From a virus, in the IMG/VR virus record IMGVR_UViG_3300020195_000171, positions 1-22,463 of that record: DNA of 22,463 bases, one strand, 5' to 3'. Positions 2,704 through 21,140 of the stretch are shown here, piece after piece. The notes under the pieces are model-generated. The model did not search any database and had not been told where the DNA came from. It saw only the letters and a list, made by a program, of their open reading frames with translations. The stretch's first letter is position 1. Each line of letters begins with the position of its first letter. The position numbers were made by a program, and so were the translations under genes.

Positions 2704-4301
2704 TGGCAATAGAAACTCTACTTTCGCTGGCCGCCGAATACGGGCACGATCTCTATCCGTCCGCCTCAGCATCGTCTCTATCGCTGTCAAGCGGAGCGCA
2801 TTTGGGCGCATCAGGAACAGCGAAAGAGGTGCAAAATTGGTGGCCGTCTAAAGGCTCGGCTGATGCTGATTTACTGCCGGACCTAGCAGTGCTGCGTGAA
2901 CGGTCCCGTGATATCACCAGGAACAACGGAATCGGCGCTGGGATCGTTCAGACGACTCATGACAACGTCGTGGGGGCCGGGGCTAGGCTGAAGGCCAAGC
3001 CAGACTTCCGCGCGTTGGGCAAGTCGCGAGAATGGGCTGCCGAGTGGGGCCAGAAGACTGAGGCTAGATGGCGCGCCTATGCCGAAACCAAGGAATCTGA
3101 CGCGGCTTGGACGCTGACCTTCGCAGCGCAAACCGGGCAAGTGTTTCGCGCCGGTCTGGTAAACGGCGAAGCTATCGCGCTCCCGCTTTGGCTGCCATGG
3201 AAGGGCAGCACGTTCCAAACTCGTTTTCAGGTGGTGGAGTCTGACCGCCTGTGCAATCCAGACAACCGGGCGGATACTGATAAGCTGCGCGGCGGTGTGG
3301 AACTCGACCGCTACGGGCGACCAGTGGCATACCATATTCGGAAAACGCATCCTGGCGATATGAGTTGGGGAATTAACGCGCCTGGCGAATGGGAGCGTAT
3401 TCCTTCCGAGACCAGTTGGGGACGCGCTCGGGTATTGCACATCCACGAAAAAGAGAGGACCGGGCAGACGCGCGGGAAGCCGTTATTGGCGGCTGTATTG
3501 CCGCAGTTCCGCATGGCGGATACCTACGTTAGGACCGAAATGCAGGCGGCGCTCATCAATGCGTTCGTCGCTGCGTTCATGGAAACCCCGCTTCCCGCTG
3601 AAGATGTTGCCACTATGCTTGGTGCCGATACGAACGATGCGAAGTGGCAGGACTACGCCAACAATCAGGCTCAATATATTGCACCGCTGCGTGGCGCTGC
3701 GATCATTCCGGTTATGCCGGGCACGAAAATGACGCCATGGGCACCGGCGCGGCCATCGGATCAGTTCACCGCGTTCACGGAGTCGGTTTATCAGCACATC
3801 GGGGTCGGCGTCGGCCTGCCGCGGGAATTGCTGCTGAAGGATTTTTCGAAGACGACATACAGCAGTTCGCGGTCTTCTATGCTTGAGGCCTACCGATTTT
3901 TCGTAGGCCGCCGCCGCTGGCTCACTGACTTTTGGCTGAATCCGGTTTACATACTCTGGCTCGAAGAGCAGGTAAACGGCGGCTTTATTGAGGCTCCAGG
4001 ATTTTACGAGAACATGTACGCCTACGGGCGTTGCGTCTGGGGATGGCCTCCCCGCGGTTGGGTGGACCCGGTGAAGGAAGCAGAAGCGACCAAGGTCCGC
4101 ATGGCTATCGGGATCTCCACTTTGGAACGCGAGTGCGCGGAACAGGGCGAGGACTGGGAAGACGTGCAGGATCAGCGGGCGCTCGAAATGCGCAGGCTGG
4201 AAGAGTTAGGCTTGCCGGCGCAAACGCCGATCTTGCCGGGGGCGCCTGGTTCGTTCATGCCAGATACAGGTGATGATGCGCAGGAGGTAATGCCGGCATG
4301 A
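2703..4301 (+). CDS. portal protein, lambda gpB family
   Basis: The portal forms the ring at one vertex through which DNA enters and leaves the head and to which the tail connects. The product is 532 residues, almost the same length as lambda gpB (533). Typical features are the N-terminal RSRDITRNNGIGAGIVQT stretch (about 67-84) with a VGAGARLKAKP strand after it, and the motif FSKTTYSSSRSSMLEAYRFF near residue 381, a hallmark of lambda-type portals. The last 30 or so residues are acidic and Pro-rich, like the processed or flexible tails seen in this family. The frame extends upstream to an ATG at 2628, but that would overlap nearly the whole end of the gpW gene. The ATG at 2703, in a TAATG overlap, gives the expected length and a normal N-terminus (MAIETLLSLAAEYG). 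The stop forms an ATGA overlap with the protease gene. Confidence 0.95.
   Translation: MAIETLLSLAAEYGHDLYPSASASSLSLSSGAHLGASGTAKEVQNWWPSKGSADADLLPDLAVLRERSRDITRNNGIGAGIVQTTHDNVVGAGARLKAKPDFRALGKSREWAAEWGQKTEARWRAYAETKESDAAWTLTFAAQTGQVFRAGLVNGEAIALPLWLPWKGSTFQTRFQVVESDRLCNPDNRADTDKLRGGVELDRYGRPVAYHIRKTHPGDMSWGINAPGEWERIPSETSWGRARVLHIHEKERTGQTRGKPLLAAVLPQFRMADTYVRTEMQAALINAFVAAFMETPLPAEDVATMLGADTNDAKWQDYANNQAQYIAPLRGAAIIPVMPGTKMTPWAPARPSDQFTAFTESVYQHIGVGVGLPRELLLKDFSKTTYSSSRSSMLEAYRFFVGRRRWLTDFWLNPVYILWLEEQVNGGFIEAPGFYENMYAYGRCVWGWPPRGWVDPVKEAEATKVRMAIGISTLERECAEQGEDWEDVQDQRALEMRRLEELGLPAQTPILPGAPGSFMPDTGDDAQEVMPA
4282..4288 (+). promoter_or_regulatory. strong Shine-Dalgarno site for the capsid protease gene
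   Basis: AGGAGGT lies nine bases before the ATG at 4298, inside the 3' end of the portal gene. It is among the strongest ribosome binding sites in the window and supports that start over any upstream one. Confidence 0.8.
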
Positions 4302-5533
4302 GAGCATTTGATTTCGCGGCCAATCAGCCGTGGGTGATCCGCGAGGAAAACTTGCGGCTAATCCTCGATATCGCTCAGCGCGACCATACTGCCGATTTTG
4401 AGGCTGTGGCCGCGCGGCAAGCGAAAACATCCGATCAGGGCGGTGTGCTGGAGATGCGCGGCTCGACGGCCATAGTCAACGTCTCCGGCCCGATTTTTCG
4501 GTACTCAAATATCTTCACAGATATCTCAGGCGCCAGCAGTATTGAGACCCTGGCTATTGCTTTTGAAAAAGCGCGCGCCAATTCTCAGGTGCAATCAATC
4601 CTTCTCAACATCGATTCGCCGGGCGGGGAAGTATCAGGCGTGGCCGAGTTCGCGGCGCAAATCTACGCTGCGCGCGGTGATAAAAAGATTGTCGCGTATG
4701 GCGGGGATCTCATGGCCTCCGGCGCGTACTGGATAGCGGCGGCGGCCAGTGAAATTGTTTTAGCGGAGACTGCTATGGCCGGGTCAATCGGCGTGGTCAT
4801 GGCGATGGTTGATAGGAGTATGCAGGACGCAGCCCGCGGCGTGAAAACATTTCAATTCGTCTCATCTCAATCTCCAAAAAAGCGAGTTGACCCGGCGACA
4901 GACGAAGGCCGTTCCGTACTTCAAACCACGACTGACGATTTGGCCGATGAGTTCATTTCAGCTATCGCCAAATATCGCGGCGTGGCCGCTGAAACAATCA
5001 TTTCAGACTTTGGGCAGGGCGGCGTTTTGATCGCCCGTAAGGCCATCGCGGCCGGCATGGCCGACCGATTGGGGAGCTTTGAGGGCGTGCTGGCAACGCT
5101 CGAAAGCGCACTTCCAACCTACAGTTTTGGCGGGTCCGCCGTCAATAATCCGAACACAAAAGGAGTACTTATGAGTACACAAACGGCGGAGCCAACCATC
5201 TCCGCTACACCTCCGGTTGACGTTGCGGCGATTCGCGCCGAAGCAGTCAACGGCGAACGCGCTCGGGTGAAAGCAATTCTGACTTGCGAAGAGGCCGCTG
5301 GCCGCGCTTCGCAGGCTCAGACGCTTGCGCTCGAATCGGACCTGTCCCTCGACCTGGTAAAGAAGATTCTTACGTCTTTGCCAAAGGCCGAAACCAAAAC
5401 CAATGATTTCGCCGCGCACATGGCGAACGTCAAGAATCCTGAAGTGGGACAGGACGAAACGAGCGGCGCTGACTCAGACGCCGTATCCATTAAGTCCACG
5501 CTCGCGCTGCACAATAATGGAAAGGGTAAATAG
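4298..5533 (+). CDS. S49-family capsid maturation protease with C-terminal scaffold (gpC/Nu3-like)
   Basis: This 411-residue protein combines a ClpP/SppA-fold serine protease with a scaffold domain, as lambda gpC does with Nu3. Such proteases act inside the procapsid and digest the scaffold and themselves during maturation. The protease core spans about residues 50-275: the strand-turn LLNIDSPGGEVSG (102-114), the nucleophile region LMASGAYWIA (Ser141), MAGSIGVVMA (160-169), and KKRVDP, where Lys194 is spaced from Ser141 as the catalytic Lys is from Ser in lambda gpC. A low-complexity linker near 275-292 leads to a helical, charged C-terminal part (about 305-365), which is the scaffold. The start at 4298 has a strong ribosome site and an ATGA overlap with the portal gene. 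An internal start for the scaffold alone is listed separately. No protease residue appears to be missing. Confidence 0.93.
   Translation: MRAFDFAANQPWVIREENLRLILDIAQRDHTADFEAVAARQAKTSDQGGVLEMRGSTAIVNVSGPIFRYSNIFTDISGASSIETLAIAFEKARANSQVQSILLNIDSPGGEVSGVAEFAAQIYAARGDKKIVAYGGDLMASGAYWIAAAASEIVLAETAMAGSIGVVMAMVDRSMQDAARGVKTFQFVSSQSPKKRVDPATDEGRSVLQTTTDDLADEFISAIAKYRGVAAETIISDFGQGGVLIARKAIAAGMADRLGSFEGVLATLESALPTYSFGGSAVNNPNTKGVLMSTQTAEPTISATPPVDVAAIRAEAVNGERARVKAILTCEEAAGRASQAQTLALESDLSLDLVKKILTSLPKAETKTNDFAAHMANVKNPEVGQDETSGADSDAVSIKSTLALHNNGKGK
5159..5165 (+). promoter_or_regulatory. internal Shine-Dalgarno site for a separate scaffold product
   Basis: AAAGGAG lies within the protease coding region, five bases before an in-frame ATG at 5171. 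Its strength and spacing are as good as those of true gene starts in this window. It falls at the junction between the protease domain and the scaffold domain, exactly where a Nu3-type internal start is expected. Confidence 0.7.
5171..5533 (+). CDS. capsid scaffold protein from an in-frame internal start (Nu3-like)
   Basis: This nested gene shares frame and stop with the S49 protease gene and would produce a 120-residue protein equal to residues 292-411 of the longer product. It starts MSTQTAEPTISATPPVDVAA, has a helical, charged centre (AIRAEAVNGERARVKAILTC and following), and ends in a flexible Gly/Ser/Asp-rich tail. In lambda, Nu3 is made the same way, by an internal start in gene C, and acts as the main scaffold around which the major capsid protein assembles before being degraded. 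The AAAGGAG box upstream of the ATG is the direct evidence for separate translation. The scaffold role is inferred from position and helical content; no scaffold family motif was recognised. Confidence 0.68.
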   Translation: MSTQTAEPTISATPPVDVAAIRAEAVNGERARVKAILTCEEAAGRASQAQTLALESDLSLDLVKKILTSLPKAETKTNDFAAHMANVKNPEVGQDETSGADSDAVSIKSTLALHNNGKGK

Positions 5534-5905
5534 ATGCCTGCATCTTTTAGTTCGACATCATCGACTGCCGATAATCTCATTGGCGGTGAACACTCGGTTT
5601 TAAGCCGGTCTATCACGCTGTTAAGCGGTCAGAATCTGGTCCGCGGCGCGGTGCTCGGAAAGATCACCACGGGCGGGAAATACATTCTTTCCCTTTCTGG
5701 CGCCAGCGACGGATCACAGACGCCTGACGCCATTCTCGCCGAGACGACCGACGCCAGCGCGGCCGATAAGGTCACAGTGGCCTACTTTAACGGCGATTAT
5801 CAGAGCGTTGAATTAACTCTTGGCGCATCGCACACAATCGCATCGATCACGGAAGGATTACGTGGCAAAGGGATCAACATTGTTGTTCCTCAAGTCACGT
5901 ACTAG
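5534..5905 (+). CDS. head decoration protein, lambda gpD family
   Basis: This 123-residue protein corresponds to lambda gpD (110 residues) and phage 21 SHP, which form trimers on the outside of the expanded capsid and cement it against DNA pressure. It sits in the gpD position, between protease/scaffold and major capsid gene. The composition fits: a Ser/Thr-rich N-terminal arm (about 1-20), which in gpD binds the capsid lattice, then small beta strands (LVRGAVLGKITTGGKYILS near 36-54) followed by AILAETTDASAADKVTVAYF (67-86), the pattern seen in most gpD relatives. The ATG follows the protease stop directly, with a GGAAAGGG stretch about eight bases upstream. No cysteines or membrane segments are present. 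Homology is judged by pattern, but the fit of order, size and motif is good. Confidence 0.9.
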   Translation: MPASFSSTSSTADNLIGGEHSVLSRSITLLSGQNLVRGAVLGKITTGGKYILSLSGASDGSQTPDAILAETTDASAADKVTVAYFNGDYQSVELTLGASHTIASITEGLRGKGINIVVPQVTY

Positions 5906-5914
5906 GACACAACC

Positions 5915-6937
5915 ATGACCCTTTTTTCTACAGATCATTTGAGCGGCGTCGTGAACAGCTTGTTCAACGAGGCGCCGTCGTTTTTGCTGGATCGCTATTT
6001 CCCGAACGTTCAATTGGAGGCCAGCGAGGAAATTCACTTCGACGTGGAGACGGCTTTCGAGGGTTTGGCTCCGTTCGTTTCTCCGGTCGTTGAGGGGAAG
6101 ATCATGACCAACCTTGGATTCACCACCAAGACGTTCAAACCCGCATATATCAAGCCCAAAAACGTTTTTGAGGCCAATGCGGCGTTGAGGCGCACCATCG
6201 GCGAGACCCTTACCGGCAACATGAGCCCGCAACAGCGCATGCAAATGCTGGTTGCGCAAAATCTGATGAACCACGTTTCCATGATTCGTCGTCGCTTGGA
6301 GTGGATGGCGTCGAGCATTTTGAGGCTTGGGTCAGTCACCATTACCGGCGATCTGTATCCTACAACGGTAGTGTCGTTTGGCCGGACGGCGGGGCTGACG
6401 GTCACGCTGGCAGGCGGCACACTTTGGACGGCGGCGGGCGTAAATCCGCTGGCCAATTTGAAGACGTGGGCGGCGCTAGTGCTTGCTACTTCAGGCTCCG
6501 CTGTAACCGATGTCGTTATGGATATCGGCGCATGGCTGGTGTTCTCGGAGAACTCTTTTGTGATCGCCCGTATGGCAGGCCAGCAGGCCCTGGGGCAGCG
6601 TCCTACGCTCAGCCAGGATGTGGTGCTTCAGCGCGGCGGAGTTCAGATGGGTACCGTTGATGGGTTCACGATCTGGGTGTACTCGGGCCGGTACAAAAAC
6701 GATTCCGGAACAGTGGTTCCCATGCTTCCCAACGGCACCGTGCTGATGGTTGGCGCGGTTGACGGCGTGCAAGCCTACGGCGCGATTCAGGACGAGGCGG
6801 CGGGCCTACAGGCTTTGCCGTACTACTCGAAGTCGTGGCTATCGGAAGATCCTCCGCGCCGTTTTATTATGACGCAATCGGCCCCGCTGCTTGTGCCTTA
6901 CCGGCCCGATGCAACGCTGGCCGCTACGGTCCTTTAA
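5915..6937 (+). CDS. major capsid protein, lambda gpE family
   Basis: This is the shell-forming protein, 340 residues against 341 in lambda gpE, with the HK97 fold expected of the family. The N-terminal region (DHLSGVVNSLFNEAPSFLLD, then FPNVQLEASEEIHFDVE) and the following FVSPVVEGKIM stretch are characteristic of gpE-type capsids. The C-terminal half includes the long VGAVDGVQAYGAIQDEAAG region and ends in SAPLLVPYRPDATLAATVL, another familiar gpE-like ending. The start at 5915 has an AGGA box seven bases upstream, and the gap after the decoration gene is nine bases. Unlike HK97, there is no N-terminal delta scaffold, which agrees with a separate scaffold protein being encoded upstream. Confidence in the assignment is high from pattern, length and order. 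Confidence 0.95.
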   Translation: MTLFSTDHLSGVVNSLFNEAPSFLLDRYFPNVQLEASEEIHFDVETAFEGLAPFVSPVVEGKIMTNLGFTTKTFKPAYIKPKNVFEANAALRRTIGETLTGNMSPQQRMQMLVAQNLMNHVSMIRRRLEWMASSILRLGSVTITGDLYPTTVVSFGRTAGLTVTLAGGTLWTAAGVNPLANLKTWAALVLATSGSAVTDVVMDIGAWLVFSENSFVIARMAGQQALGQRPTLSQDVVLQRGGVQMGTVDGFTIWVYSGRYKNDSGTVVPMLPNGTVLMVGAVDGVQAYGAIQDEAAGLQALPYYSKSWLSEDPPRRFIMTQSAPLLVPYRPDATLAATVL

Positions 6938-6950
6938 TAGGGAGTTCCTC

Positions 6951-7460
6951 ATGCGACGAAGAGACGCACTGTTCGCGCTTTTGTCCTGCGCCGGGCCCAT
7001 CCTGGCGCAGGGGTCAATTAGTGAATATTACATCGACCGTGAAGTCACCCTTTCTGCGGCTGCATCGGTCGTGACTATTCAGATTCCGGCTGCCAGTACT
7101 CGGAGTCTGCAACTTAAATTCGCGCAAGTATGGTGCTCGGCTGGCTCCGTGGAGGTTACTATAGAGCGCGACGGCGCCGCGGCAACGACTACCAGCGTTA
7201 CGCCCGCTAAAATCAATCCTAATGCGGTGTGGGTTCCTTCGTCCATCGCATCGGCGTTTCATACATCAAACGTTGGCGCTGGAACGCAAATCGGGATCAA
7301 GCAGACGGCCTACGCCGGCAACGACGGGCTGAAATTGGACATGACTTCGACTGTTCTTGAAAAGGCATCGGCGTCTGTTCGAAACCTCACTTTCCGGACT
7401 GCTTCCTTTACGGGTACAGTTCGCATTTACATCCTTTGGGAAGAACGAGTAAACTTATGA
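6951..7460 (+). CDS. protein of unknown function with N-terminal export signal, inserted in the head module
   Basis: I do not recognise this 169-residue protein. It opens with a clear signal-peptide-like segment: a basic start (MRRRD), a hydrophobic core (ALFALLSCAGPIL) and an AQG exit, so the mature chain would begin near residue 20. The RRRD start could suit the Tat route. The LLSC sequence around Cys13 is a weak lipobox, but the hydrophobic stretch before it is short. The rest is rich in Thr, Ser, Val and Ala, alternates like beta strands, and has one further Cys in QVWCSAGSV. The ATG at 6951 was chosen over one at 6891, which lies inside the capsid gene, because TAGGGAG precedes it at good spacing and it creates the signal. 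The end overlaps the next gene by ATGA. A virion protein is expected to stay in the cytoplasm, so this may be cargo acting on the host envelope, or the hydrophobic start may serve another purpose. Confidence 0.72.
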   Translation: MRRRDALFALLSCAGPILAQGSISEYYIDREVTLSAAASVVTIQIPAASTRSLQLKFAQVWCSAGSVEVTIERDGAAATTTSVTPAKINPNAVWVPSSIASAFHTSNVGAGTQIGIKQTAYAGNDGLKLDMTSTVLEKASASVRNLTFRTASFTGTVRIYILWEERVNL

Positions 7461-7747
7461 AAATTTCAGCGCTTGGAACGATTATCGTGAATGAGGCGAC
7501 ATACAGTCAGGGAGACAGCTTCAACATAGACTCCGGGGCGGGGCAGGAACTGATCGCCGCCGGCAAGGCCGAATTGGTTCCGGACCTGGTGGCAAATGAC
7601 ATCACGTCTGCCGACGGCGCCATCGACCGGGCTGCATACGAACACGGCATGAAGCGGGAGTCTGATGCAACCGGGGAGGCGTCAGGTCTGCCGGTACAAA
7701 AGAAAGCTGTGGTCCATCCGCCTGTAAAGCCGCCGGTTAAGCCGTAA
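7457..7747 (+). CDS. small head protein, possibly gpFI-like packaging accessory factor
   Basis: This 96-residue protein lies between the capsid region and the gpFII-like gene, the place of lambda FI. Residues about 17-42 (SYSQ-like turn, then GDSFNIDSGAGQELIAAGKA) resemble the pattern that ends lambda gpFI as I remember it (a Gly-x-x-Phe strand, an Ala/Glu helix and a Gly-x-Ala turn). In lambda, gpFI helps terminase dock on the procapsid and is not a stable part of the virion. The C-terminus is a basic, proline-rich tail (KKAVVHPPVKPPVKP) likely to be unstructured. The ATG at 7457 in an ATGA overlap was preferred to one at 7436, deeper in the preceding gene. The stop overlaps the next ATG by one base. 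The role is inferred mainly from order and a short motif. Confidence 0.62.
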   Translation: MKISALGTIIVNEATYSQGDSFNIDSGAGQELIAAGKAELVPDLVANDITSADGAIDRAAYEHGMKRESDATGEASGLPVQKKAVVHPPVKPPVKP

Positions 7748-8067
7748 TGTCTTTTTTTCCGTCTGGGCTGGTGATGACCGATGAATTAATTCGATCCAAC
7801 GCAGCCCAGATTGAATATTCCGGGGAAGCTGCAACTTGGACGCCCGCGGGCGGGGTGGCGACGGCTGTCCGAGTAGTCCGCGCCGATCCGAGCGAGCTAT
7901 CCGCCGGAGGCGTGCTTATGATGTTGTTCGGCACGATGGCCGGGTCCGGGTTTACGCAGATGCCAGTGAAAAACGACGTGTTTACCGTGAACTCGATCAA
8001 CTACCGCGCCTTTGACGTGCAAGGTCCAGACGTCGCTCTGGGTCTCTGGATTCATCTAACCAAATGA
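7747..8067 (+). CDS. head-tail joining protein, gpFII-like
   Basis: This 106-residue protein is placed and sized like lambda gpFII (117 residues), which binds gpW under the portal and forms the surface to which the tail attaches. The sequence reads as a short helix (GLVMTDELIRSNAAQ) followed by a beta barrel: ATAVRVVRADPSEL, then QMPVKNDVFTVNSINYRAFDV and GPDVALGLWIHLTK. The V-x-x-x-D-x-F/L-T-V-N/G-x-x-x-Y/F segment followed by a last strand with a Trp and His is the usual pattern of this stopper/joining fold. The gene begins in a TAATG overlap and ends in an ATGA overlap with the next one. The name rests on fold pattern and gene order, not on close identity. Confidence 0.7.
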   Translation: MSFFPSGLVMTDELIRSNAAQIEYSGEAATWTPAGGVATAVRVVRADPSELSAGGVLMMLFGTMAGSGFTQMPVKNDVFTVNSINYRAFDVQGPDVALGLWIHLTK

Positions 8068-8519
8068 TAGATCCAGCTACATTACGGGAGGCGCAGGTGA
8101 CCGCGTTGCGTGAGATCCCCGGCGTAGTCGCGCTCCTGGGCGCGAGTACATCAAATATCGTCGATTACATCGAGCAGGAAAACGGAGACCTGTTCAACGC
8201 TATCTGGAGCCTTTCGCCGCCGAAACTTTTGGTCGTCTACCAGGGGACCAATCCCAGCGGCGGATCGACGAATATGTGGCAGCATAACTTTTCCTGGATC
8301 ATTCGTGTATCTGGTTCTCCGACGGCGCTATTCGCCGCCATCATGAATGGCTCCAGAACGGGCGGGAATGGCCTGCCGTTTGTGCACGACTCGATCAACA
8401 ACGTTTATCATCCGATGGGCATTCCATCCATGAGACGCTCCGTGATACCGGTTAGCGACATGGCTTCGAAAGACTATTGGGAAATCACAACCAGCTACAC
8501 TAGCAGAGGAATTGAATAA
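8064..8519 (+). CDS. probable tail terminator / tail completion protein (gpU-like position)
   Basis: This 151-residue protein follows the head-tail joining gene and precedes the tail tube gene, where siphophages encode the tail terminator (lambda gpU), which caps the finished tube and fixes tail length. The N-terminus is helical (LREAQVTALREIPGVVALLG), followed by PPKLLVVYQGTNPSG, a strand pair WQHNFSWIIRVSGS, and a helix SPTALFAAIMNGS. An alternation of helix, edge strand and a xxWxxxxxYxSRG ending (YWEITTSYTSRGIE) fits terminator-like and related tail completion folds. The start lies in an ATGA overlap; an AGAGGA box near its end serves the next gene. A connector role cannot be excluded because no single motif is diagnostic. 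Confidence 0.6.
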   Translation: MIDPATLREAQVTALREIPGVVALLGASTSNIVDYIEQENGDLFNAIWSLSPPKLLVVYQGTNPSGGSTNMWQHNFSWIIRVSGSPTALFAAIMNGSRTGGNGLPFVHDSINNVYHPMGIPSMRRSVIPVSDMASKDYWEITTSYTSRGIE

Positions 8520-9589
8520 TGCCAGCACGCGCGCAAAACCTACGGGTCGGGATGGGCTTCAAGCGACAACCTAATACGGGCGAGGTTGCGACGACGGCGG
8601 CAGAGTTGCAAGCCGCTTTAACAGCGTCGGATCTGTGGAGTCTGGGTAACTCTACATTCAGCGTTCCGTTTCCAGAATTCGTTCAAGAAAACGATGCGGG
8701 TTTTTTTGGCAAGGGCCACGAATGGTCCACGCAGGTGTTCCCAACATCGATCAGTATTCCCTATGCGTGGGAATATCACCTCACCTCACAAAATTGGGCG
8801 CAGGTGAGTGTCTTTGCCCTTGGAAAAACAATCGAATCCACCCCAGGGGTGGGCGCTACTCAGTACCTATCTACGCCAATGGACCCATCCGTTGACGGCG
8901 TGAACATGAAGGCTACAACCTTCGTTGGGGATATTCTTGCCGGCGGCGCGCTGGAGATCCTGGATATTGCGGCTGTGGGCATGGTTTGCAGCGGCTTCAA
9001 TTTGAAGCTAGAGCGCGGGCCTGGGCTGCAAAATAGCCAGCTTTCATCGCAATGGGTCGGATGCGGAAAGTACGTCAATAACTCCGGCATCGTCATCCCC
9101 GCCGCTACGGTTGAGCAGCGTTTGGGCGCTGGCTCCGCCACGGCGATTACAATCAACAGCGTCAACTACATTACTAACGCCCGTTTCGTCAACATGGAAT
9201 TTGGCTTCCAAAACAATCCTGTTATCGGGCATTACCCTGGGTCCGGGTCTCAGTCAGGTTTTGATATCGCTGGCCGCATGCGGTATGGCGAACGCTCAGC
9301 AACGTTTAATTGGCAGGTAGAACTCGAAGCATCGTCTGCGGAGCTTACGGATTTGCTGGCTGGCACCGAAGGGACGACGACGATAACCGTCGAAGGACCT
9401 ACGATAGTTGCGGCCATCAAGCATACAGCCGAGATCGTGTTGCACCGCGTGCGGCACAAGGCGTTTAAGATCGGCGAGATCGATGGTTTCGTAACTGCCG
9501 GAGTGGAGACGGAAGTGATGTATCATCCCTCGAATGGACTGATGACACTCAAGGCAATCACAACAAAAGCCCTGATCGGAACGGAATAA
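8519..9589 (+). CDS. major tail tube protein
   Basis: This 356-residue protein is the best candidate for the tail tube subunit, which stacks in rings to form the channel for DNA. It lies between the terminator and chaperone genes, where tube genes are normally found. The chain is dominated by strand-like stretches with many Gly, Thr, Ser and Asn residues, including TFSVPFPEFVQENDAGFFGK (45-64), then GHEWSTQVFPTSISIPYAWE (65-84), and a C-terminal beta portion (FNWQVELEASSAELTDLLAG near 260-280, then KAFKIGEIDGFVTAGVETEV). It is longer than lambda gpV (246), so it probably carries an insertion or an extra surface domain in the middle. AGAGGA lies eight bases before the ATG. Two cysteines only; no signal or membrane segment. 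Confidence 0.72.
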   Translation: MPARAQNLRVGMGFKRQPNTGEVATTAAELQAALTASDLWSLGNSTFSVPFPEFVQENDAGFFGKGHEWSTQVFPTSISIPYAWEYHLTSQNWAQVSVFALGKTIESTPGVGATQYLSTPMDPSVDGVNMKATTFVGDILAGGALEILDIAAVGMVCSGFNLKLERGPGLQNSQLSSQWVGCGKYVNNSGIVIPAATVEQRLGAGSATAITINSVNYITNARFVNMEFGFQNNPVIGHYPGSGSQSGFDIAGRMRYGERSATFNWQVELEASSAELTDLLAGTEGTTTITVEGPTIVAAIKHTAEIVLHRVRHKAFKIGEIDGFVTAGVETEVMYHPSNGLMTLKAITTKALIGTE

Positions 9590-10219
9590 ATGTTCGACAC
9601 AAATAAAGAAATCGATATCAGCATTTACAGCGGCGGCCAGAAACACTGTACCGTCGCATGGCCGACAGATGCCGAGTGGAAGCGGCGCGCGAACAAAACG
9701 CGCATCAAGGAGGAATCTATCGGTCGTGACAAATCTCGTACCAGCGTCATCGGCGCGGAACCGGCTGCGCTCGAGATGTTCGAAAAGATCCGGAAGGACG
9801 GGGGTGATCCATTCGACGCGGCTGAAGCGATGGAAGTGATCGACCGCTTGGAATTTTGTGAACTTTGTGAAAGCGACGAAGGCGAGCCAGGGATAGACGT
9901 ACGCGGAGATAAGATCACGGTGCGGTTAGCGGCGCTGAAGCACAAGGGGCGGGCGCTGATGAACGGCATGGCGCACACGCTGAAGCATCCGAGCATGAAG
10001 CAGATGCGCGAGTACAAGCTGGCATGCGTGGATCTCAGTCGCGTGCGGAAGGGTACGGAAATGACGCAGCCGCTCGCGCCAGGTGAAGCCCTTTTCGATG
10101 CGCTCGTTGAGCATTCTGAAGGGTACGCGGCCGGCGTGCCGGTCACGCATAAAGACTTTGTAGTGTGCCGGATTTTGGAAGCCATCCGCGAGTTGGAGGA
10201 AGACGAAGCCGAGGCATGA
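9590..10219 (+). CDS. tail assembly chaperone, gpG-like position
   Basis: This 209-residue acidic protein lies directly after the tail tube gene and before a small overlapping gene and the tape measure gene. That is the G/GT slot, whose products coat the tape measure protein and recruit tube subunits during tail assembly but are absent from the virion. It starts with a strand (KEIDISIYSGGQKHCTVAWP), followed by mostly helical sequence with many charged residues (KHKGRALMNGMAHTLKHPSM), and ends in an acidic helix (LEAIRELEEDEAEA). The CELCESDEG part near 94-100 contains two Cys but not a full metal-binding set. The start follows the tube stop without a gap. The role is inferred from position, charge and the paired downstream gene. 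Confidence 0.68.
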   Translation: MFDTNKEIDISIYSGGQKHCTVAWPTDAEWKRRANKTRIKEESIGRDKSRTSVIGAEPAALEMFEKIRKDGGDPFDAAEAMEVIDRLEFCELCESDEGEPGIDVRGDKITVRLAALKHKGRALMNGMAHTLKHPSMKQMREYKLACVDLSRVRKGTEMTQPLAPGEALFDALVEHSEGYAAGVPVTHKDFVVCRILEAIRELEEDEAEA

Positions 10220-10482
10220 TCGGCGCGTTCCGGGAAGCGGCGCGGTCCATAGTCCGCGGCGGTGAGCCGGAACTCGGGGCCGGTCTCAGGGAATTTGTGA
10301 TGTGCGTGTTTGATTTGGACGCGGCATTGGAGATGGGGTTCACTATCACGCTCGCCGAAGTCACTCCGCTGGAGTTCCGCGGACTGATGGTAGTACGCGA
10401 GGAGCGGGCGAGGTATCAGGAGCAACAGCGGGCGATGGAAGAGCAAAAAGGGAAGATGCGCCGCGGCGCGGGAGCGTTTTAA
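10216..10482 (+). CDS. second tail assembly chaperone-like protein (gpT-like position)
   Basis: This 88-residue helical protein is encoded in the -1 frame relative to the preceding gene and immediately before the completion and tape measure genes. The pattern VTPLEFRGLMVVREERARYQ (about residues 50-69) followed by a Glu/Gln/Lys-rich helix and GKMRRGAGAF resembles the second part of many chaperone pairs. In lambda this part is made only as a -1 frameshift fusion (gpGT). Here the ATG at 10216 forms an ATGA overlap with the gpG-like stop, so re-initiation can explain its synthesis. A GTG at 10165 in the same frame would give 17 more residues. The frame is closed by a stop at 10150-10152, and no clear slippery heptamer is seen in the 10153-10219 overlap. 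Confidence 0.68.
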   Translation: MIGAFREAARSIVRGGEPELGAGLREFVMCVFDLDAALEMGFTITLAEVTPLEFRGLMVVREERARYQEQQRAMEEQKGKMRRGAGAF

Positions 10483-10946
10483 TGGCGGTAAAATTCCAGA
10501 CAAAGATCACTAAAGCGCGGTTTGTCTATTCACCGTTGACCGGGCAGAGAATGGCTGAAATAGGCACGTCGCTTATCGCGCAAATCTTCGAACGATGGGA
10601 TCGAGGTATGGGAGTGAGCGATTCCCCAGCGCGGCCGCTGGCGTTGGGGTACGCAAAAGCTAAGCAGCGGCGTGGCGGGCAGGGAATCCGTGATCTTAGC
10701 ATGACAGGCCGGTTGCGCCGGTCAATAAAAGCACTTTCGGCAAATCAGAATAAGGTCACGTTGGGTCCGACTGATGGCATGCACACGCGGCTAAAACGAG
10801 GCGGAATCCTGAGCTTTTCTGACGTGCTGACTCTGAATCAGAGGCGGTTTCGCATGTGGGGCGTGAGTCAGGCTGAGAGGGCGAAGCTAGTGCGGCTATT
10901 CGCCGGCGAGCGCATGGTCAAAGCGCAGATAGTGCAGGCGGAGTAA
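10482..10946 (+). CDS. tail completion / virion morphogenesis protein (Phage_tail_S or gp10-like)
   Basis: This 154-residue basic protein has the hallmarks of the morphogenesis proteins that complete the head-proximal part of the tail. A helix with MAEIGTSLIAQIFERWDRGM is followed by PARPLALGYAKAKQRRGGQ, a basic stretch, and then the motif LSMTGRLRRSIKALSANQNK, which is typical of this group. The C-terminal part has RRFRMWGVSQAERAKLVRLF. Members of the family bind near the tail terminator or the connector. In lambda the analogous gene (Z) lies before the tube gene, whereas here it comes after the chaperones. The gene starts in a TAATG overlap with the T-like gene and ends the same way with the tape measure gene. 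Placement in the family is by motif; the exact binding partner is unknown. Confidence 0.75.
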   Translation: MAVKFQTKITKARFVYSPLTGQRMAEIGTSLIAQIFERWDRGMGVSDSPARPLALGYAKAKQRRGGQGIRDLSMTGRLRRSIKALSANQNKVTLGPTDGMHTRLKRGGILSFSDVLTLNQRRFRMWGVSQAERAKLVRLFAGERMVKAQIVQAE

Positions 10947-14464: not shown

Positions 14465-14854
14465 ATGCCGGGCATCGTCTCCCAAGCCGTCGCCGCAACG
14501 GTGCTTCCCTACTCACTCGCATCCGAGTACGTGGAGTGCCGGACGTGGCCAGTGATCGAAAATGGCCCTATGCCCGACGGCTCCTATCTCAAGTTTGTTC
14601 AGGGCGCGGCGGACAGGCGGGAATGGAAACTTGGGCGTCGTCCTACGGGCGCGCAATACACGGCGATGCTGGCCTTTTGGACCGCGCGGAAAGGTTCCCA
14701 TCAGGCATTCCATTTCTACCCGGTCATGGCGCAACACGACGCAACAGGCGTTTCCGCTACAGGCCGTTTCCTCGTTCGATTCCTTGGACCATTTTCAACT
14801 ACTCACTCCATTGGCCTTGATTCCGTCTCCTTCGCCCTAATTCAACTTCAATGA
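14465..14854 (+). CDS. minor tail tip protein, gpM-like
   Basis: This 129-residue protein directly follows the tape measure gene with a three-base gap, where lambda encodes gpM, one of the tail tip subunits. The sequence has the M/Dit-like plan: a short N-terminal arm, a strand with LKFVQGAADRREWKLGRRPT, a helix with AMLAFWTARKGSHQAFHFYP, and a late strand group VRFLGPFSTTHSIGLDSVSF. Aromatic residues in FHFYPV and the VRF strand are typical. The same plan appears again in the first 115 or so residues of the next, giant gene, which suggests a duplication. The stop forms an ATGA overlap with that gene. The fold assignment is inferred from the pattern. Confidence 0.65.
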   Translation: MPGIVSQAVAATVLPYSLASEYVECRTWPVIENGPMPDGSYLKFVQGAADRREWKLGRRPTGAQYTAMLAFWTARKGSHQAFHFYPVMAQHDATGVSATGRFLVRFLGPFSTTHSIGLDSVSFALIQLQ

Positions 14855-17800
14855 TTCGACTCCCCTACGGTACGACTGAATCGCGCGAGCCCATCATTCA
14901 CGTCCATCGTTTCGAAACGCGGGATACGAAGACGGAGCAGCGCTTCTACGCGGGTGCGGGCGAGCGGCGTTTGCGCGTTTCTCTTGATAGTTTGGCGCCA
15001 GATGAGCGGGCGGAAATCATCAACCAATTCGCGGCTGCGCAGGGTTCATATCTGCCGTTCACGATCAACCTGGTTCTACCCGACGGCTCGACGGAAGTTT
15101 TGTCCGTTCGGTTTGCTGCGCCTCGGCTGGAAATCCAGACGCTGATTGACGGCTCCACCTGGGCCGCGTCATTCGATCTGATTGTGGATCCGGGAGCGGC
15201 TCCAGCATATACTAGCGCCTCGACTGAAACGCGTTTTCCTGGCGCGTCTCTTCAGACCGCTTTGTTGAGTCCGGTGCAGGAGATCATTCCGCTATTGGTC
15301 ATCACCACATTGGCAGGGACGGTCCATCGCGTCTCTGAGCGCGCTTGCGCGGTTGACGGAGTAGCCTACGCGGCTAAGCTGATTGAATGGGACGGCATCA
15401 AGCAGACTTTGTACGGCGCGGACCAAGCAAGTTTCACGCTGGCGAATGCCGACCGGGCATTTACGACGGCGGTGAACGCTGATAATTGGCACGCAGCGGA
15501 CGTGCAATTTTCGCTCCTTCACGTTGGCACTCTTATCAAGCTCAACCTTTGGCGCGGGCACGTTATTCCCGGCGGTTGGGATTTGTCGGGCGGGACTACG
15601 TTCCGAATCACTGCCGGTGATGGCGCTTATCAGCTACGCCTTGCCTATCCTCCGCGAAAGATCACGCGGCAAGATGGGTTTGTCACTCCTGCCGATCACC
15701 AGCCGGTGAATCTGGGCAAAGGCAAAAATAGAATTACGGCGACATCGGTGGTTCACGATACCGGCTACGGCAAGCCGTTGAAGGATATTTGGGTGGACGA
15801 CGCAACCGCGCCGCTGCAGGTTCGTTGCGACGTGTTGGCGGGGAGGGATGAAAAGGAATTCTACGCGGCGATCGGCATTGTTGGGCGCGGCCCGATCGGC
15901 GACTTTGGCGCGGTGCCGATTATTGCCGGGGCGACGATTTACAAGTACGGCACGTTGGATGGGCAACCACATCACGGCCCTGGCTTGCTGGGCCTTCGTC
16001 GTTCGCGTGGCGGCAACGCGGCCACGGGGTCAGAAACGCAAATCAATAGCAACCCCGATGCCGGATCGACGATTTTGGCGATTGACGAAGTAGGTACACC
16101 GCTGCCAGCCACACCGCTCGCTCCTCCGGGCGCGGCGTTCCTGCAAATTCGTCGCACCGATGAGGCCGGTATACAGCCGGATAATGCCACGAAAGAACAC
16201 GAAATGATCGCGTTTGTTTCGCAGGGCAATGGCGGGTATATTTGGACTGCGGGAGTTCGCTCCTGGGCAACGGCACTCACAAATCCGGCATGGATAGCGA
16301 TCAACGTCTGGCTCCGCGGCCTCGGCCTCGGCGCTGCATCGCAGGCCTCGCAGGAGGCGGAATTCGACGTCGTAGCGGCTGAGGCTTTCGCGGCAACTTG
16401 CGCTACGGTTGCGCCGGTTCTGGTTGGTGCTGGGACGGAAACTCAGTTTCGATTTGTCGGCGTGATCGAAGAGGAAAAGCCGCTTCGCGATTGGTTGAAG
16501 GAAATATTGGCGTGCGCGCTGGGCTACTTCACGTTTTCCTTTGGCAAGCTGAAACTCGGCAGCCGGTTTCATTCGGGATCGACTGAAGCTTTCGATAGTG
16601 GGAATATCATTCTGAATTCGCTCGCTTTGAGCGCGGCGACGGCGGAATACAATAACCTTTCCGCTACCTTTGCCGACCGGGAGTACGGCTATCAGAGCAA
16701 CACCCTTGAATTTATAGAGACCGATCATAGTGCCGCGATTGGGCAGGAGCTCAAAGCGTCTATAAATCTGGCTGGCGTCGCCACAAAGTCACAGGCAGCG
16801 CGACTCACGACAACATTGGTACGCGAGCAACTGGGCGGCGCAAACGCGGCTGAATGGGCAAAGGCACGGCGCATTGCGGCTTCGACGACGGTTCTCGCGC
16901 TGAACGTCGATTGCGGAACTATTGGCAATCTGACCCATGCGGACATGCCGTCCGGGGCCGGTGAATTTATTGTAGAAGGCTGGACGCTCAATCGAGACAT
17001 GAGCATCTCGATTGAGGGCCGCTCGACGACCGATGCAATGTACGACATGCTCGTGGGGAATAAGCCGACAGATGTGGCGGTGAATCTTCCTCCGGGATCT
17101 GTGGACAAACTGCCGGGATTGTTCATTTATACGCCGGTCGTCAAAGATATCGGCTTTTTGACTTTGACCAATTGTTCGATGACTGACGGCTCCAACCGGG
17201 GCCTGCGCAGCGTGACTGTATTTTTGGTTTACATCGACGAAACGGAGCCGAATAACTGGGTAACGAATAACTCTGATCCTGGCACCGTTGATCCAGCTAC
17301 ATTTAACGTGACGCCGAACGGAGTGGTTACTTTTGGCGTCGATGACTACGTTGTTTTTGAAGACGTAGGAGATTACGAGATCGACCGGATTACAGCGATT
17401 GCAACGCCCGCATGGACGCTACAACGAAGCTGGCCGGGGAACGATCCGGCTGAGGCTATATTTGAGTCGCTACGGGCCGCCCACGCAGCGGGCACGCGCA
17501 TCTATCGGTGCAAGGTCCAAAAGTTTAGCTTCAACGCTGCGGGCGGGACGTTTGAGGATTCGAGCGACACGGGGACGCTGGCCACGGAATTTGCTTGTCA
17601 GATTGCTGATGCCCGCGTTATGGCCGTTGTGGCCAGCGCCTCAAATGGGTACGGATACTCCGATTGGGTGGTCTATAACCTCGGAGCCGGGCTGAGTACC
17701 GGCAATATGTCAACGTATGGCGGTGGATCAATTCCTCCTGATCCGGTAACCATCGTTTCCGCAGATTATGAATATATCGACGCCTATCGCCTGCGTGTGC

Positions 17801-20484
17801 GGATTTATTGGACGCCGCCAGTAGTGCCGGGGACTTTCGCCGGGGTCCATTGTTTTGAGGAATCGCCGGACGTTTCCTCGATTGGCAGCACGCCGATGGA
17901 CGGCACGCAGGCGATGGATGGCACGTCGAATCTAGGCGGGGATTGGGCTCCAGCCGATCTAGGGCGCGGTGTCGTGAGTCCGTTTGTTATCGAGATGGCC
18001 GCGCCTGTCATTGGGTTGACGAAGCGATTTTATCTGGCGAGCTATTCCGCTGGCGCAGAGGCTCCGCTGGTCAGGGCAACCGATCCCAGCCCGACGCCAA
18101 GCATTACGCTGGCAATCGTTTTGCCGGTCTACCAATCCGGCGTCGAGTACGCGCAACTCGTTACCGGCGCGGTGGCCACGATTGAATACGATGAGTCTCA
18201 GGTGGCCTCACCAAAATACCGCATTCGGTTTCAGTGGGCGGTTCCATCTATCGCGTCTGCTGCGTGGCAACTTGGATTTGGCGGGGTGCAGATAGTCTAC
18301 CAGTACGACGACGGAGGCCGCTCGAATGGCCCGAGTTTCGCGGTGAACGAACTCGATGCGAAGAGCGATTGGTACGATCTGTATATCGGCACCAGCGTTA
18401 TCGGATGCTGGTTTGTCTCCTACGACAACTCCGAACAGCCGCGCCTGAATACCATTGTCCCTGGCGTGACACCGCGTTCCGATGTCACGGTGGTTTGGCC
18501 GCTTGCCACACGTCCGGCGGCGGCTCCATACGCGGATAACGTCACTACATTCGCCGTATCGAATGCCCGTTATACGACCAATGGGCAGGGCCTAAAGGTT
18601 TTGAAAATCGACTGGGTTTGGACGATACCCGTGGGAGCTGACGCGCTCGCACGGTGGGGCGGGGCAATCATCTACCTGTTCATTCCCGGCGATACGAACC
18701 CGTATCAGATCAGCGGCGCCGAGTCTGGCGCGGCGGGTACGATGGAGTTTTCCCAGTTCCCGATAGCAATTGAAAGCTGGACGTTTTACGCAATCAGTCA
18801 GGACAACAACGGAAACCCGAACACGACAGCAGCCGCGCCGATTGGAGGAACGCCTAGTTCTTCGATATCCGTTGGGCCTCCTACGCCTGGGGCTGCGGGG
18901 ACGGAGTGGACCGGGAATGTCACCAGCCCTTCATTCTCCGTCGCCTCCGTATCCGCCTCTGATGGCACTACCACGCAGCGAATCTCCGCTACCTTTACAA
19001 GGCCCGGCGATGTGACGTGGGGCGGCGTGGAGGGACGAGTGTACGATGGGGCGGCACTCGTTGCGAAGACTCCGGCCAGCGCGTCTCCGTGGAGGATCGA
19101 GGTTCCGAATCCGACGACGTCAACGACGCTGACAATCAAGCTGGTATCTTTCGATGTCAACGGACAGACGAACACGGAAACTGCCGGAACTCCGCAGGGT
19201 ACGGTGCTTGTTGGCTCGACTGCCGGTACTTTGGATTTGCGCAAGTTTCTTCCGGCATCGACCGACAATTTTGCCATCGTCGGTTCGTTCCTTCAGGTCA
19301 AAACCGGCGTCGCGATTACGGTCGATGCGTCAGGAAATTTGAGGGTAGCTGTGAGCGGGATCGACGCCAGCCTCATAGCGGCGGGCGCGGTCGGCAACGC
19401 CGCTTTGATAAATGGCTCCGTTGATGATCTCAAGCTCGCAGCGGCGGCTGTGACGGCTGCCAAGATTGCGGCGGGCGCGGTAACATCTCCGGCTATCGCA
19501 GCCAGCGCGGTTACAGCGGGTAAGATCGCGGCTTTGTCCATCGTGGCTGGCGACATTGCGGCAGACGCCATCACGGCGGCAAAGATTTTGGCGGGATCTA
19601 TCACAACCGTGAAGATCGCCGCCGGAGCAGTGACGGCGACGGAGATCGCCGCACTCGCTATCGTCGCTGGCAAGATCGCAGCAAACGCCATCACGGCCAC
19701 GGAGATTGCTACCGATGCGGTGACTGCCGGCAAGATCCTGGCAGGGTCGATAACCACGGGAAAGGTTGCAGCAAACGCTATCAGTTCGGACAAGCTGGAC
19801 GCGACGGTTATCAACGTTGGCGGCGGCGGGTCGAAGCCTGGTAAGTTCGCGGTATTCAACGCGGCTGGTTCGCAGATCGGGTTTATTGGCGTCGAAGGTG
19901 CGAACGAGGGCGGCTGGCTCAAGACTTTGAGCGTCGGAGGTTCGTCCTACGCAACCGGAAAACTTAAGGCCGATGCAAGCGGGAATGTGACGATTGATGG
20001 CGCGACGCTGACTTTGTTTGCGAATGGGATCACGTCTGTAATCGACAATAGTAACTCGGGTGGATACGTTTCCGGGTTCCGAAGCACTGACGCGAGCGGG
20101 TATCTGGCGCGCATGGGCGTTTCGAGCGGGGGAGGCGGCATTCCGTTTGTGAGCACTTTGCGAGGATCAATCAGAGGTGAGATGACTTCCGATTCATCGG
20201 GAGCGTACCTGACGTTGACTAATTCCGCTGGCACGCAAACGATTGAGCTCGACGGGAATCAAGGGCGGGCCAATCTCACATCGGTGAATGCTTCTTCGTC
20301 CTACAGCGTTGCTTCATCTCAGGTAGTGTCCGCCCGTAAGACCGGTTGGGCGACGGCGACTGGCACGGCGAACCGAACCACGTTTGCAACATCCACCGTA
20401 ACTTTGCCGGAGTTGGCGGAACGCTTGAAAGCCCTAATCGACGATTTGCACAATTCCGCTGGCCATGGGCTGATAGGAACGTAG
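14851..20484 (+). CDS. giant tail tip / host specificity protein, fused gpM-gpL-gpJ-like with fibre C-terminus
   Basis: At 1877 residues this is the largest product here and probably the central tip of the tail: hub, receptor-binding stem and fibre. Residues 1-115 repeat the gpM-like plan of the preceding gene (GERRLRVSLDSLAPDERAEI, then SVRFAAPR). Residues about 150-260 resemble gpL or other hub domains (VDGVAYAAKLIEWDGIKQTL, then SFTLANADRAFTTAV). Residues about 504-735 look like the gpJ hub (NSLALSAATAEYNNLSATFA, then REYGYQ). Four beta-sandwich modules follow, with core strands near 980, 1122, 1248 and 1376, perhaps FN3-like. Residues 1529-1648 are 12 decapeptide repeats. The C-terminal 225 residues are Gly/Ser/Thr-rich beta sequence ending in a helix and GHGLIGT. 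The start is in an ATGA overlap; the end is ten bases before the next gene. Domain names are inferred from pattern, not alignment. Confidence 0.85.
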   Translation: MIRLPYGTTESREPIIHVHRFETRDTKTEQRFYAGAGERRLRVSLDSLAPDERAEIINQFAAAQGSYLPFTINLVLPDGSTEVLSVRFAAPRLEIQTLIDGSTWAASFDLIVDPGAAPAYTSASTETRFPGASLQTALLSPVQEIIPLLVITTLAGTVHRVSERACAVDGVAYAAKLIEWDGIKQTLYGADQASFTLANADRAFTTAVNADNWHAADVQFSLLHVGTLIKLNLWRGHVIPGGWDLSGGTTFRITAGDGAYQLRLAYPPRKITRQDGFVTPADHQPVNLGKGKNRITATSVVHDTGYGKPLKDIWVDDATAPLQVRCDVLAGRDEKEFYAAIGIVGRGPIGDFGAVPIIAGATIYKYGTLDGQPHHGPGLLGLRRSRGGNAATGSETQINSNPDAGSTILAIDEVGTPLPATPLAPPGAAFLQIRRTDEAGIQPDNATKEHEMIAFVSQGNGGYIWTAGVRSWATALTNPAWIAINVWLRGLGLGAASQASQEAEFDVVAAEAFAATCATVAPVLVGAGTETQFRFVGVIEEEKPLRDWLKEILACALGYFTFSFGKLKLGSRFHSGSTEAFDSGNIILNSLALSAATAEYNNLSATFADREYGYQSNTLEFIETDHSAAIGQELKASINLAGVATKSQAARLTTTLVREQLGGANAAEWAKARRIAASTTVLALNVDCGTIGNLTHADMPSGAGEFIVEGWTLNRDMSISIEGRSTTDAMYDMLVGNKPTDVAVNLPPGSVDKLPGLFIYTPVVKDIGFLTLTNCSMTDGSNRGLRSVTVFLVYIDETEPNNWVTNNSDPGTVDPATFNVTPNGVVTFGVDDYVVFEDVGDYEIDRITAIATPAWTLQRSWPGNDPAEAIFESLRAAHAAGTRIYRCKVQKFSFNAAGGTFEDSSDTGTLATEFACQIADARVMAVVASASNGYGYSDWVVYNLGAGLSTGNMSTYGGGSIPPDPVTIVSADYEYIDAYRLRVRIYWTPPVVPGTFAGVHCFEESPDVSSIGSTPMDGTQAMDGTSNLGGDWAPADLGRGVVSPFVIEMAAPVIGLTKRFYLASYSAGAEAPLVRATDPSPTPSITLAIVLPVYQSGVEYAQLVTGAVATIEYDESQVASPKYRIRFQWAVPSIASAAWQLGFGGVQIVYQYDDGGRSNGPSFAVNELDAKSDWYDLYIGTSVIGCWFVSYDNSEQPRLNTIVPGVTPRSDVTVVWPLATRPAAAPYADNVTTFAVSNARYTTNGQGLKVLKIDWVWTIPVGADALARWGGAIIYLFIPGDTNPYQISGAESGAAGTMEFSQFPIAIESWTFYAISQDNNGNPNTTAAAPIGGTPSSSISVGPPTPGAAGTEWTGNVTSPSFSVASVSASDGTTTQRISATFTRPGDVTWGGVEGRVYDGAALVAKTPASASPWRIEVPNPTTSTTLTIKLVSFDVNGQTNTETAGTPQGTVLVGSTAGTLDLRKFLPASTDNFAIVGSFLQVKTGVAITVDASGNLRVAVSGIDASLIAAGAVGNAALINGSVDDLKLAAAAVTAAKIAAGAVTSPAIAASAVTAGKIAALSIVAGDIAADAITAAKILAGSITTVKIAAGAVTATEIAALAIVAGKIAANAITATEIATDAVTAGKILAGSITTGKVAANAISSDKLDATVINVGGGGSKPGKFAVFNAAGSQIGFIGVEGANEGGWLKTLSVGGSSYATGKLKADASGNVTIDGATLTLFANGITSVIDNSNSGGYVSGFRSTDASGYLARMGVSSGGGGIPFVSTLRGSIRGEMTSDSSGAYLTLTNSAGTQTIELDGNQGRANLTSVNASSSYSVASSQVVSARKTGWATATGTANRTTFATSTVTLPELAERLKALIDDLHNSAGHGLIGT
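17788..19230 (+). repeat. four divergent beta-sandwich modules in the tip protein
   Basis: Similar core strands recur at protein residues about 980 (RLRVRIYWTPP), 1122 (KYRIRFQWAVP), 1248 (LKVLKIDWVWTIP) and 1376 (QRISATFTRP), 126-142 residues apart. Each is followed by a segment describing a Gly-rich turn and another strand. The copies differ too much to look like recent duplications. FN3-like folds are common in lambda gpJ-type tip proteins, and this reading is inferred. Confidence 0.6.
19435..19794 (+). repeat. twelve 30-bp (decapeptide) repeats in the tip protein
   Basis: Residues 1529-1648 consist of 12 consecutive ten-residue units with consensus I-A-A-x-A-(I/V)-T-A-x-K/E. Examples are IAADAITAAK, IAANAITATE and ILAGSITTGK. 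The DNA is degenerate between units, so this is an old repeat kept by selection, although a longer pattern of about 50 residues is also visible (IAALSIVAGD and IAALAIVAGK). Similar spaced I-x-x-x-x-I/V repeats in phage fibres form trimeric beta or coiled stalks. Confidence 0.92.
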
Positions 20485-20494
20485 AATAGGAATA

Positions 20495-20872
20495 ATGAAA
20501 ACACTTTTTCTTGCGCTAACGCTTTTATTGATGCCAATGCTGGCGCAGACTAAATCGTATTGGTGGCACTCTGCCATTAAGCCTCCAATCTCCGGCACAA
20601 TATTGGCTGGTGAAGCTAAGGAGTTTGTGGCCATGGTGGCATCAGACCCGGACCCAAGCATCATCGGGTTCCGTTTTATATGCCGGTTTACGGCTGGCGG
20701 TGTTGAGTACACGGTGGATCGTATGGAGCCAATCACGCGTCGCACGCCGGACGGTGCAACCGCATCCCTGGTATTCGAAGTGCAGAACGCTAAGGTTCTG
20801 TCTGCAACCGCTCAGCCTTTGAGGGGCGGGGCGGTCACATCAGCATGGGGAGGAACGGATGGAACGAATTGA
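20495..20872 (+). CDS. small protein with signal peptide, unknown function, in the lambda lom position
   Basis: I do not recognise the family of this 125-residue protein. It begins with a typical Sec signal peptide: MK, a hydrophobic stretch (TLFLALTLLLMPM), then LAQ, so cleavage would fall near residue 17-18. The remaining chain is about 107 residues, beta-rich in look (EFVAMVASDPDPSIIGFRFI, then SLVFEVQNAKVLSATAQPL), with one Cys, so no internal disulphide is possible. The start at 20495 has an AGGA box and lies ten bases after the tip gene. The end overlaps the next gene by 14 bases. In lambda, lom, which encodes an outer membrane protein that changes the host surface, lies in the same position after gene J. 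There is no visible sequence link to lom. It could be a conversion factor, an exclusion factor, or a protein used with the tail fibres. Confidence 0.75.
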   Translation: MKTLFLALTLLLMPMLAQTKSYWWHSAIKPPISGTILAGEAKEFVAMVASDPDPSIIGFRFICRFTAGGVEYTVDRMEPITRRTPDGATASLVFEVQNAKVLSATAQPLRGGAVTSAWGGTDGTN

Positions 20873-21140
20873 GCTGACTCAGAATCAGCAGCAGCGCCTC
20901 CAGCACTTTCGGCGTCAAATCGAGCCGCTTAAGGCGCAGGCGGCTGCGCTCGAACAAGGAGTTTTCGCCATGCTTTCAACGGTCGTTGAATGCGCCGGTG
21001 CCGATCCTGGCGCTAACTACTCGCTCAACGAGGAGGGCACTGCATTGGTTTGCACGAACCAACAGGAGCCGGCAGCCGGTTCCATGTCCGCGGCACCGAT
21101 TCCAAACGAGGGAATGGTCAATGGCCTGGCTCAGCAGTAA
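20859..21140 (+). CDS. small protein with N-terminal coiled coil, unknown function
   Basis: This 93-residue protein was not recognised. The first 45 residues are helical and polar with heptad-like spacing (RIELTQNQQQRLQHFRRQIE, then PLKAQAAALEQGVFAML), and the rest is acidic and probably loose (CAGADPGANYSLNEEGTALV). Two Cys occur in VVECAG and LVCTNQ. A strong GGGGAGGA box lies a few bases before the ATG at 20859, so the gene is very likely expressed. It overlaps the previous gene by 14 bases and the next one by 20 bases. Its place before a tail fibre gene fits a fibre-associated or assembly role, but that is only position-based. Confidence 0.66.
   Translation: MERIELTQNQQQRLQHFRRQIEPLKAQAAALEQGVFAMLSTVVECAGADPGANYSLNEEGTALVCTNQQEPAAGSMSAAPIPNEGMVNGLAQQ

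Follow-up and report, generated by a model that had tools for sequence, protein, structure and literature searches.

Why would a tailed phage keep a gene for an apparently exported protein among its head genes? The textbook view is that assembly of tailed phages takes place in the cytoplasm, and the question is raised by a gene of 169 codons at 6951–7460 (+ strand) of the window analyzed here, which comprises an entire viral record (22463 bases). The gene opens with an ATG that lies a few bases behind a Shine-Dalgarno-like GGGAG (6940–6944, +) and closes with a TGA that overlaps the ATG at 7457, so both the good ribosome site and the ATGA coupling on the 3′ side reported in the initial annotation hold. 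Upstream stand a lambda D-like head decoration gene without a signal (5534–5905, +; PF02924, 6.2e-16) and the Phage_cap_E major capsid gene (5915–6937, +; PF03864, 1.2e-70; phrog_29, 7e-81), which bears out the claimed capsid flank. The "gpFI-like" label given to the downstream flank, a small head gene at 7457–7747 (+), reflects its position, because its sole match is phrog_2616 (7.2e-6), a family of unknown function.

Two further observations concern the surroundings. The protease gene at 4298–5533 is 98% identical in contig IMGVR_UViG_3300020213_000270 (L036), which indicates that a near-identical phage was sampled elsewhere; that contig stops short of the 6951–7460 gene. Ahead of the gene of tape-measure size, ORFs 9590–10219 and 10165–10482 overlap and may represent two tail chaperones produced by frameshifting, with a counterpart in a Bryobacter prophage (L038:9979–10554 and 10497–10931).

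The exported-looking N-terminus proved to be a clear leader, but its exit is probably not after "AQG" as first described. Codons 1–19 (6951–7007, +) encode a putative Sec signal peptide, MRRRDALFALLSCAGPILA, followed by Q, with likely cleavage between A19 and Q20 at a host-type A-Q exit. Behind it lies a mature chain of 150 aa (7008–7457, +). A basic n-region, a hydrophobic h-region, and a small −1 residue are all present, as judged by a crude filter and by alignment. Of the 48 ATG/GTG starts in the window that have a Shine-Dalgarno-like site, two pass the signal filter, namely 6951–7460 and 20495–20872; another run of the filter on the window also flagged the FI-position gene (7457). The possibility that the true start lies downstream of the hydrophobic stretch is unlikely, because the next in-frame starts are TTG at codon 11, GTG at codon 41, and ATG at codon 131. 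The TTG falls within the hydrophobic stretch and the GTG within a strand, leaving no usable start just behind the leader.

The closest relative is carried by contig L002, whose capsid protein is 85% identical to that of the window; a 77% identical version of the gene occupies the corresponding position there and has a conserved leader, MRRREALFALLAPCARPLLAQG. Between the two phages, pN and pS are 0.09 and 0.45 over 22 leader codons, 0.15 and 0.77 over the mature part, and 0.13 and 0.73 over the capsid gene; on this comparison of sequences, the leader codons are under purifying selection. Synonymous divergence is lower in the leader (window 6951–7016 versus L002) than in the mature part (Fisher 0.008, computed from rounded counts), and this low synonymous change may reflect a constraint on the initiation region. 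Tat export, which the RRRD start had been thought to allow, finds no support at the level of the family, because L002 is the only one of the other nine members to retain the twin arginine (RRRDALF in the window, RRREALF in L002). One further member has RR elsewhere in its n-region, and the Tat motif (S/T)RRxFLK is not kept in the other eight.

Membership of the family was established in stages. As a single query, the window protein gave no convincing match in viral contigs, Pfam, or NCBIfam, and among PHROGs it retrieved only weak unnamed families or "lipoprotein" at E 0.3. Four phage records at E 0.03–0.09 were taken as chance, and three plasmid matches at E 0.1 were likewise unconvincing. 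The L002 protein performed no better as a query, and a two-row profile of both proteins returned nothing convincing from solved structures and genome contigs. The first relatives came from a DNA pattern search built on the C-terminal motif NLTxRTxSxTGT, after which profile searches added more. The pattern gave 14 matches, nine of them unrelated, with L073 being L002's contig and L072 repeating the protein of L068. Ten distinct members were obtained: seven from viral contigs (the window, L002, L067, L068 with its protein repeated in L072/L100, L101, L102, and L066, which equals L103) and three (G437, G399, and G440, the last truncated where its contig stops) from the 257 Bryobacterales genomes searched with the family model. 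In 396 Acidobacteriota genomes, a first search gave matches in 18 genomes at E 0.009–0.09, which were taken as chance, and an earlier six-row version of the family model had no matches at E 0.001.

The leader is present in all ten distinct members, and in all ten the exit is A or G followed by Q. In a seven-row alignment, M1 and Q20 are invariant, and identity to the query is 32–40% for members other than L002. Leader sequences otherwise vary freely, keeping their n-, h-, and c-regions and the A/G-Q exit. The original suggestion of export is supported by this conservation and by the host's use of an A-Q exit, and Sec export is well supported as far as sequence can indicate it.

The host's usage was gauged on 400 kb of a Bryobacter genome (G001), where 35 of 514 long ORFs in any frame pass the signal filter. 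In 17 of these 35, the first polar residue behind the hydrophobic stretch is Q, and A, G, or S precedes that Q in 16 of the 35. The leader of 6951–7460 looks host-type because Q follows the leader in 17/35 signal-like Bryobacter ORFs. The same genome contains a prophage (L038) with a related capsid protein (55%) and a similar gene order, in which a different signal-bearing gene (MRKLSALIAIVFVVVLFAQ, L038:7189–7575) lies near the slot of the window gene. Two longer signal-bearing ORFs stand at the far end of the late region of this prophage, possibly within it. A host-type leader would also be expected of a passenger gene captured from the host and exported without a role in the phage cycle, and a host secreted protein in a Bryobacterales genome (G548) did match the family model. 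That fourth genome match was dropped, as its alignment covers only model positions 1–53, the leader region. No cellular homologue of the mature domain was seen, the three convincing genome matches adjoining phage-like or signal-bearing cassette genes, and the window and L002 share both the slot and purifying selection. We consider a mere passenger very improbable.

AlphaFold supplied with seven sequences (pLDDT 83.6, pTM 0.77) predicts the mature part as a ten-strand, jelly-roll-like beta sandwich with pLDDT mostly 78–94, whereas the leader (pLDDT about 50, residues 14–20 below 50) lies outside the fold. A previous prediction that used two sequences was of low quality (pLDDT 48), and the matches it gave were disregarded. 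A Foldseek comparison with viral models listed 111 matches with E no higher than 0.001; those at the top are mostly unnamed phage proteins of 150–200 aa with TM about 0.5–0.67. Among solved structures the best matches (Z 6–8.8) include the lambda central fiber; capsid jelly rolls and the HFTV1 turret (Z 7.9) and KHP40 cement (Z 7.4) proteins, also among them, score at levels common for unrelated sandwiches. The predicted fold thus fits a surface jelly roll without identifying one, being compatible with a capsid cement or decoration jelly roll (about 110–170 aa) but not specific to it. Jelly-roll cement and turret proteins (KHP40 cement, HFTV1 turret, Pam1) resemble the window protein in size, beta-sandwich fold, and capsid-adjacent gene. 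They are cytoplasmic and not known to carry a leader, the match scores to them are unspecific (Z 7–8), and there is already a lambda D-like gene for head decoration in the window phage. In CVT22 and LIMEzero, the structural relatives, chosen from the annotation by protein length, have no leader, and the one in CVT22 has no detectable sequence relation to the window protein. The filter flags one of 20 genes in each of these two phages. No canonical virion-anchor domain was seen in the jelly-roll family.

The window and L002 genes stand alone between the capsid and FI-position genes, but in the L067, L101, L103, G437, and G399 contigs a member is adjoined by other signal-bearing genes, some of which match the tail-fiber families phrog_5073, phrog_366, phrog_819, and phrog_15455. 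The L067 member is grouped with two further signal-bearing ORFs, the first of the two matching the tail-fiber family phrog_5073 (9.5e-8), and this group is flanked by a capsid gene (PF05065, 5e-43) and a connector-like gene. L103 has a run of five signal-bearing ORFs (4998–9799), and a collagen-like one (phrog_5073, 4.2e-5) comes after the member in L101. The contig of the G437 member is a phage contig, with genes for capsid, portal, and terminase; the member has a spike with a signal (phrog_15455, 3e-13) on one side and a collagen fiber with a signal (phrog_819, 8.5e-10) on the other. The major head gene of L068 and L101 matches phrog_9953. The filter also flagged starts in 14 of 37 related-capsid loci besides the window, L002, and L038; these were judged false by eye, being internal starts or the first strand of the FI-position gene.

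Several side observations belong with these contigs. The last signal-bearing ORF of L103 has a Tat-type RRRFGK start and looks metallophosphoesterase-like by eye, without a Pfam match. Putative glycosyltransferase genes separate the head genes from the family gene in L068 (4229–5499, with a methyltransferase-like gene also present) and L101 (6195–6950, matching an unnamed family only), making virion glycosylation possible. On the minus strand of a 73-kb viral contig (L069, 7620–8657), a chance pattern match has a signal-like start, MKKALLPLLLFILPLLCFG, followed by a beta-helical look, and is perhaps another signal-bearing spike.

Rather than an export signal, the hydrophobic N-terminus could be a virion-binding or oligomerization peptide retained on a cytoplasmic virion protein; virion proteins of tailed phages are normally cytoplasmic, the window gene adjoins the capsid gene, and the leaders stand exactly before spike anchor domains. 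In the G437 spike, the 105 residues that directly follow the leader have matches in 15 phage records, of which several are annotated as tail spike. None of the four records inspected has a leader, each starting within a few residues of the aligned mature start. When an 87-aa anchor query was run on 257 Bryobacterales genomes, all four matches carried a leader, whereas none of the four matches from 300 Burkholderiales genomes did (Fisher 0.029 for this comparison alone; 0.002 with the phage records added). Homologous spikes elsewhere lack the leader segment entirely, which argues against a retained peptide, as do the preserved n-, h-, and c-regions and A/G-Q exit of host signal peptides, the position of the leader outside the predicted fold, and the cysteine content described below. 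We regard retention without export as improbable.

Three of the four Bryobacterales spikes (G437, G495, and G582) come after internal-virion-type genes, as judged by size, order, and sequence, which is the usual spike place; the G582 spike matches only the unnamed family phrog_26190. The fourth (G425) has host-like flanks yet matches spike families (phrog_2234, 4.9e-12). These proteins share an anchor domain with the podovirus spikes of Xanthomonas phage PBR31, Rhodoferax P26218, and Pseudanabaena Pan3 and, in 3/4, their gene place, but differ from them in the leader of about 16–21 residues in front. The window protein itself, unlike orthodox podovirus tail spikes, is not a spike.

Cysteine content was compared after residue 25. 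The 24 signal-bearing proteins have 121 Cys in 7623 residues (1.59%) versus 109 in 19271 (0.57%) for structural controls from the same phages (Fisher 9e-15), the controls being hand-chosen ORFs of five other contigs/loci plus the window and the proteins not being independent. The Cys number is even in 16 of the 23 signal-bearing proteins that have any. Such enrichment fits folding in an oxidizing place; the disulfide argument is not applicable to the window protein alone because its mature chain has one Cys.

Cultivated phages carry genes of a similar kind. In the Acidobacteriota podoviruses Tunturi 1 (host Tunturiibacter psychrotolerans X5P2) and Tunturi 2, six successive genes, gp12–gp17, have leader-like starts and stand between a tail gene and the lysis region, with annotations that include tail spike, tail fiber, pectin lyase, and virion structural protein. 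In Tunturi 1, five of these genes pass the signal filter and gp15 does not; when the six proteins were searched against PHROGs, only gp17 had a match, near its C-terminus. The leader-bearing runs in the structural region each exceed 12 kb (L114:10371–23028 in Tunturi 1, L126:803–13745 in Tunturi 2). The jelly-roll family itself is absent from Tunturi 1. The leader feature is not universal, because it is missing from the window's own tail gene (14851–20484, +; 1877 aa, J-like by position and size), from the window gene at 21121–21822, and from the 28 and 23 late genes scanned in Tunturi 3 and Tunturi 4. In its main text, the Tunturi paper (PMC11924767) uses "signal peptide" 0 times and "mass spectrometry" 0 times.

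These data also bear on the idea, raised in the initial annotation, of lysogenic conversion cargo. Its export component agrees with the leader; the cargo label is probably too narrow, and is weakened because the same leader type precedes orthodox spikes, fiber genes, and six Tunturi 1/2 genes in a row. The main rival is related: an exported envelope protein that never reaches the virion and that would prevent superinfection or re-adsorption or assist release, in the manner of Lom, Cor, and other exported late-operon morons. Lambda Lom is described as signal-bearing and encoded between tail spike and fiber genes (PMC12309495) and Cor as inactivating FhuA (PMC11436027). Like such exclusion proteins, the window product is a small signal-bearing protein encoded among structural genes, and its leader is conserved. 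It is unlike Lom in lying between the major capsid and FI-position genes, and unlike the Lom/Cor type in being jelly-roll-like without an outer-membrane barrel and in that related phages have signal-bearing spikes and fibers as neighbors. The envelope role is a better fit for the second signal-bearing late gene of the window (20495–20872, +; 125 aa), which directly follows the J-like gene, the lambda lom position; its product begins with MKTLFLALTLLLMPMLA followed by QTKSYWW, exits at LA before Q, and has no family match. Moron-like behavior is further suggested by the different signal-bearing proteins in nearby slots of related phages, as at L038:7189–7575, and by the Tat-type start among the L103 ORFs. 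Against an envelope role for 6951–7460, leaders also precede anchored tail spikes, Tunturi 1 devotes about 12.6 kb to such genes, which is much for exclusion alone, and no relative of a known exclusion protein was found in Pfam, NCBIfam, or named PHROGs, although absence from these libraries weighs little. We judge this alternative unlikely, if a serious contender.

An exported virion-surface protein is favored because the same leaders precede virion-anchored spikes. We tentatively propose that 6951–7460 encodes a small surface protein of jelly-roll type, made as a secretory precursor and exported late through Sec, whose likeliest end point is the virion surface. The gene would be expressed together with the head genes; its Sec-type leader would direct the product to the periplasm, signal peptidase I would cut at A19/Q20, and the mature sandwich would fold there. 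Export and cleavage of the product, like attachment of the mature protein to virions, are steps that we infer; the virion surface would be reached at lysis, when periplasm and cytoplasm mix. With a leader and host-type A/G-Q exit inside a late structural operon, the protein would be one of a late set of secretory precursors in phages of Bryobacterales and other Acidobacteriota, orthodox tail spikes included.

Filamentous phages offer a familiar case of virion proteins (pIII, pVIII) whose signal peptide is removed by cleavage; these phages differ from the window phage in being membrane-extruded ssDNA phages rather than tailed. We know of no tailed phage whose virion proteins derive from cleaved signal-peptide precursors. 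The searched literature, in the parts consulted, contained no report of a tailed-phage virion protein made as a secretory precursor, nor of signal-bearing spikes or fibers in Acidobacteriota phages. More broadly, and with greater reserve, Acidobacteriota tailed phages may make spikes, fibers, and a capsid-side jelly roll as Sec precursors that fold and oxidize in the periplasm and dress virions at lysis, a two-compartment assembly. For annotation, leader-bearing spikes could be mistaken for host genes or lysogenic cargo. Because the cultivated Tunturi 1 and Tunturi 2 carry the same kind of gene, one virion proteome could answer the export question. On this reading, these phages of soil bacteria would export some of their surface proteins from the cytoplasm ahead of release, and if surface and receptor-binding proteins take the Sec route in phages of the whole host group, virion assembly, disulfide use, and superinfection control would work differently there.
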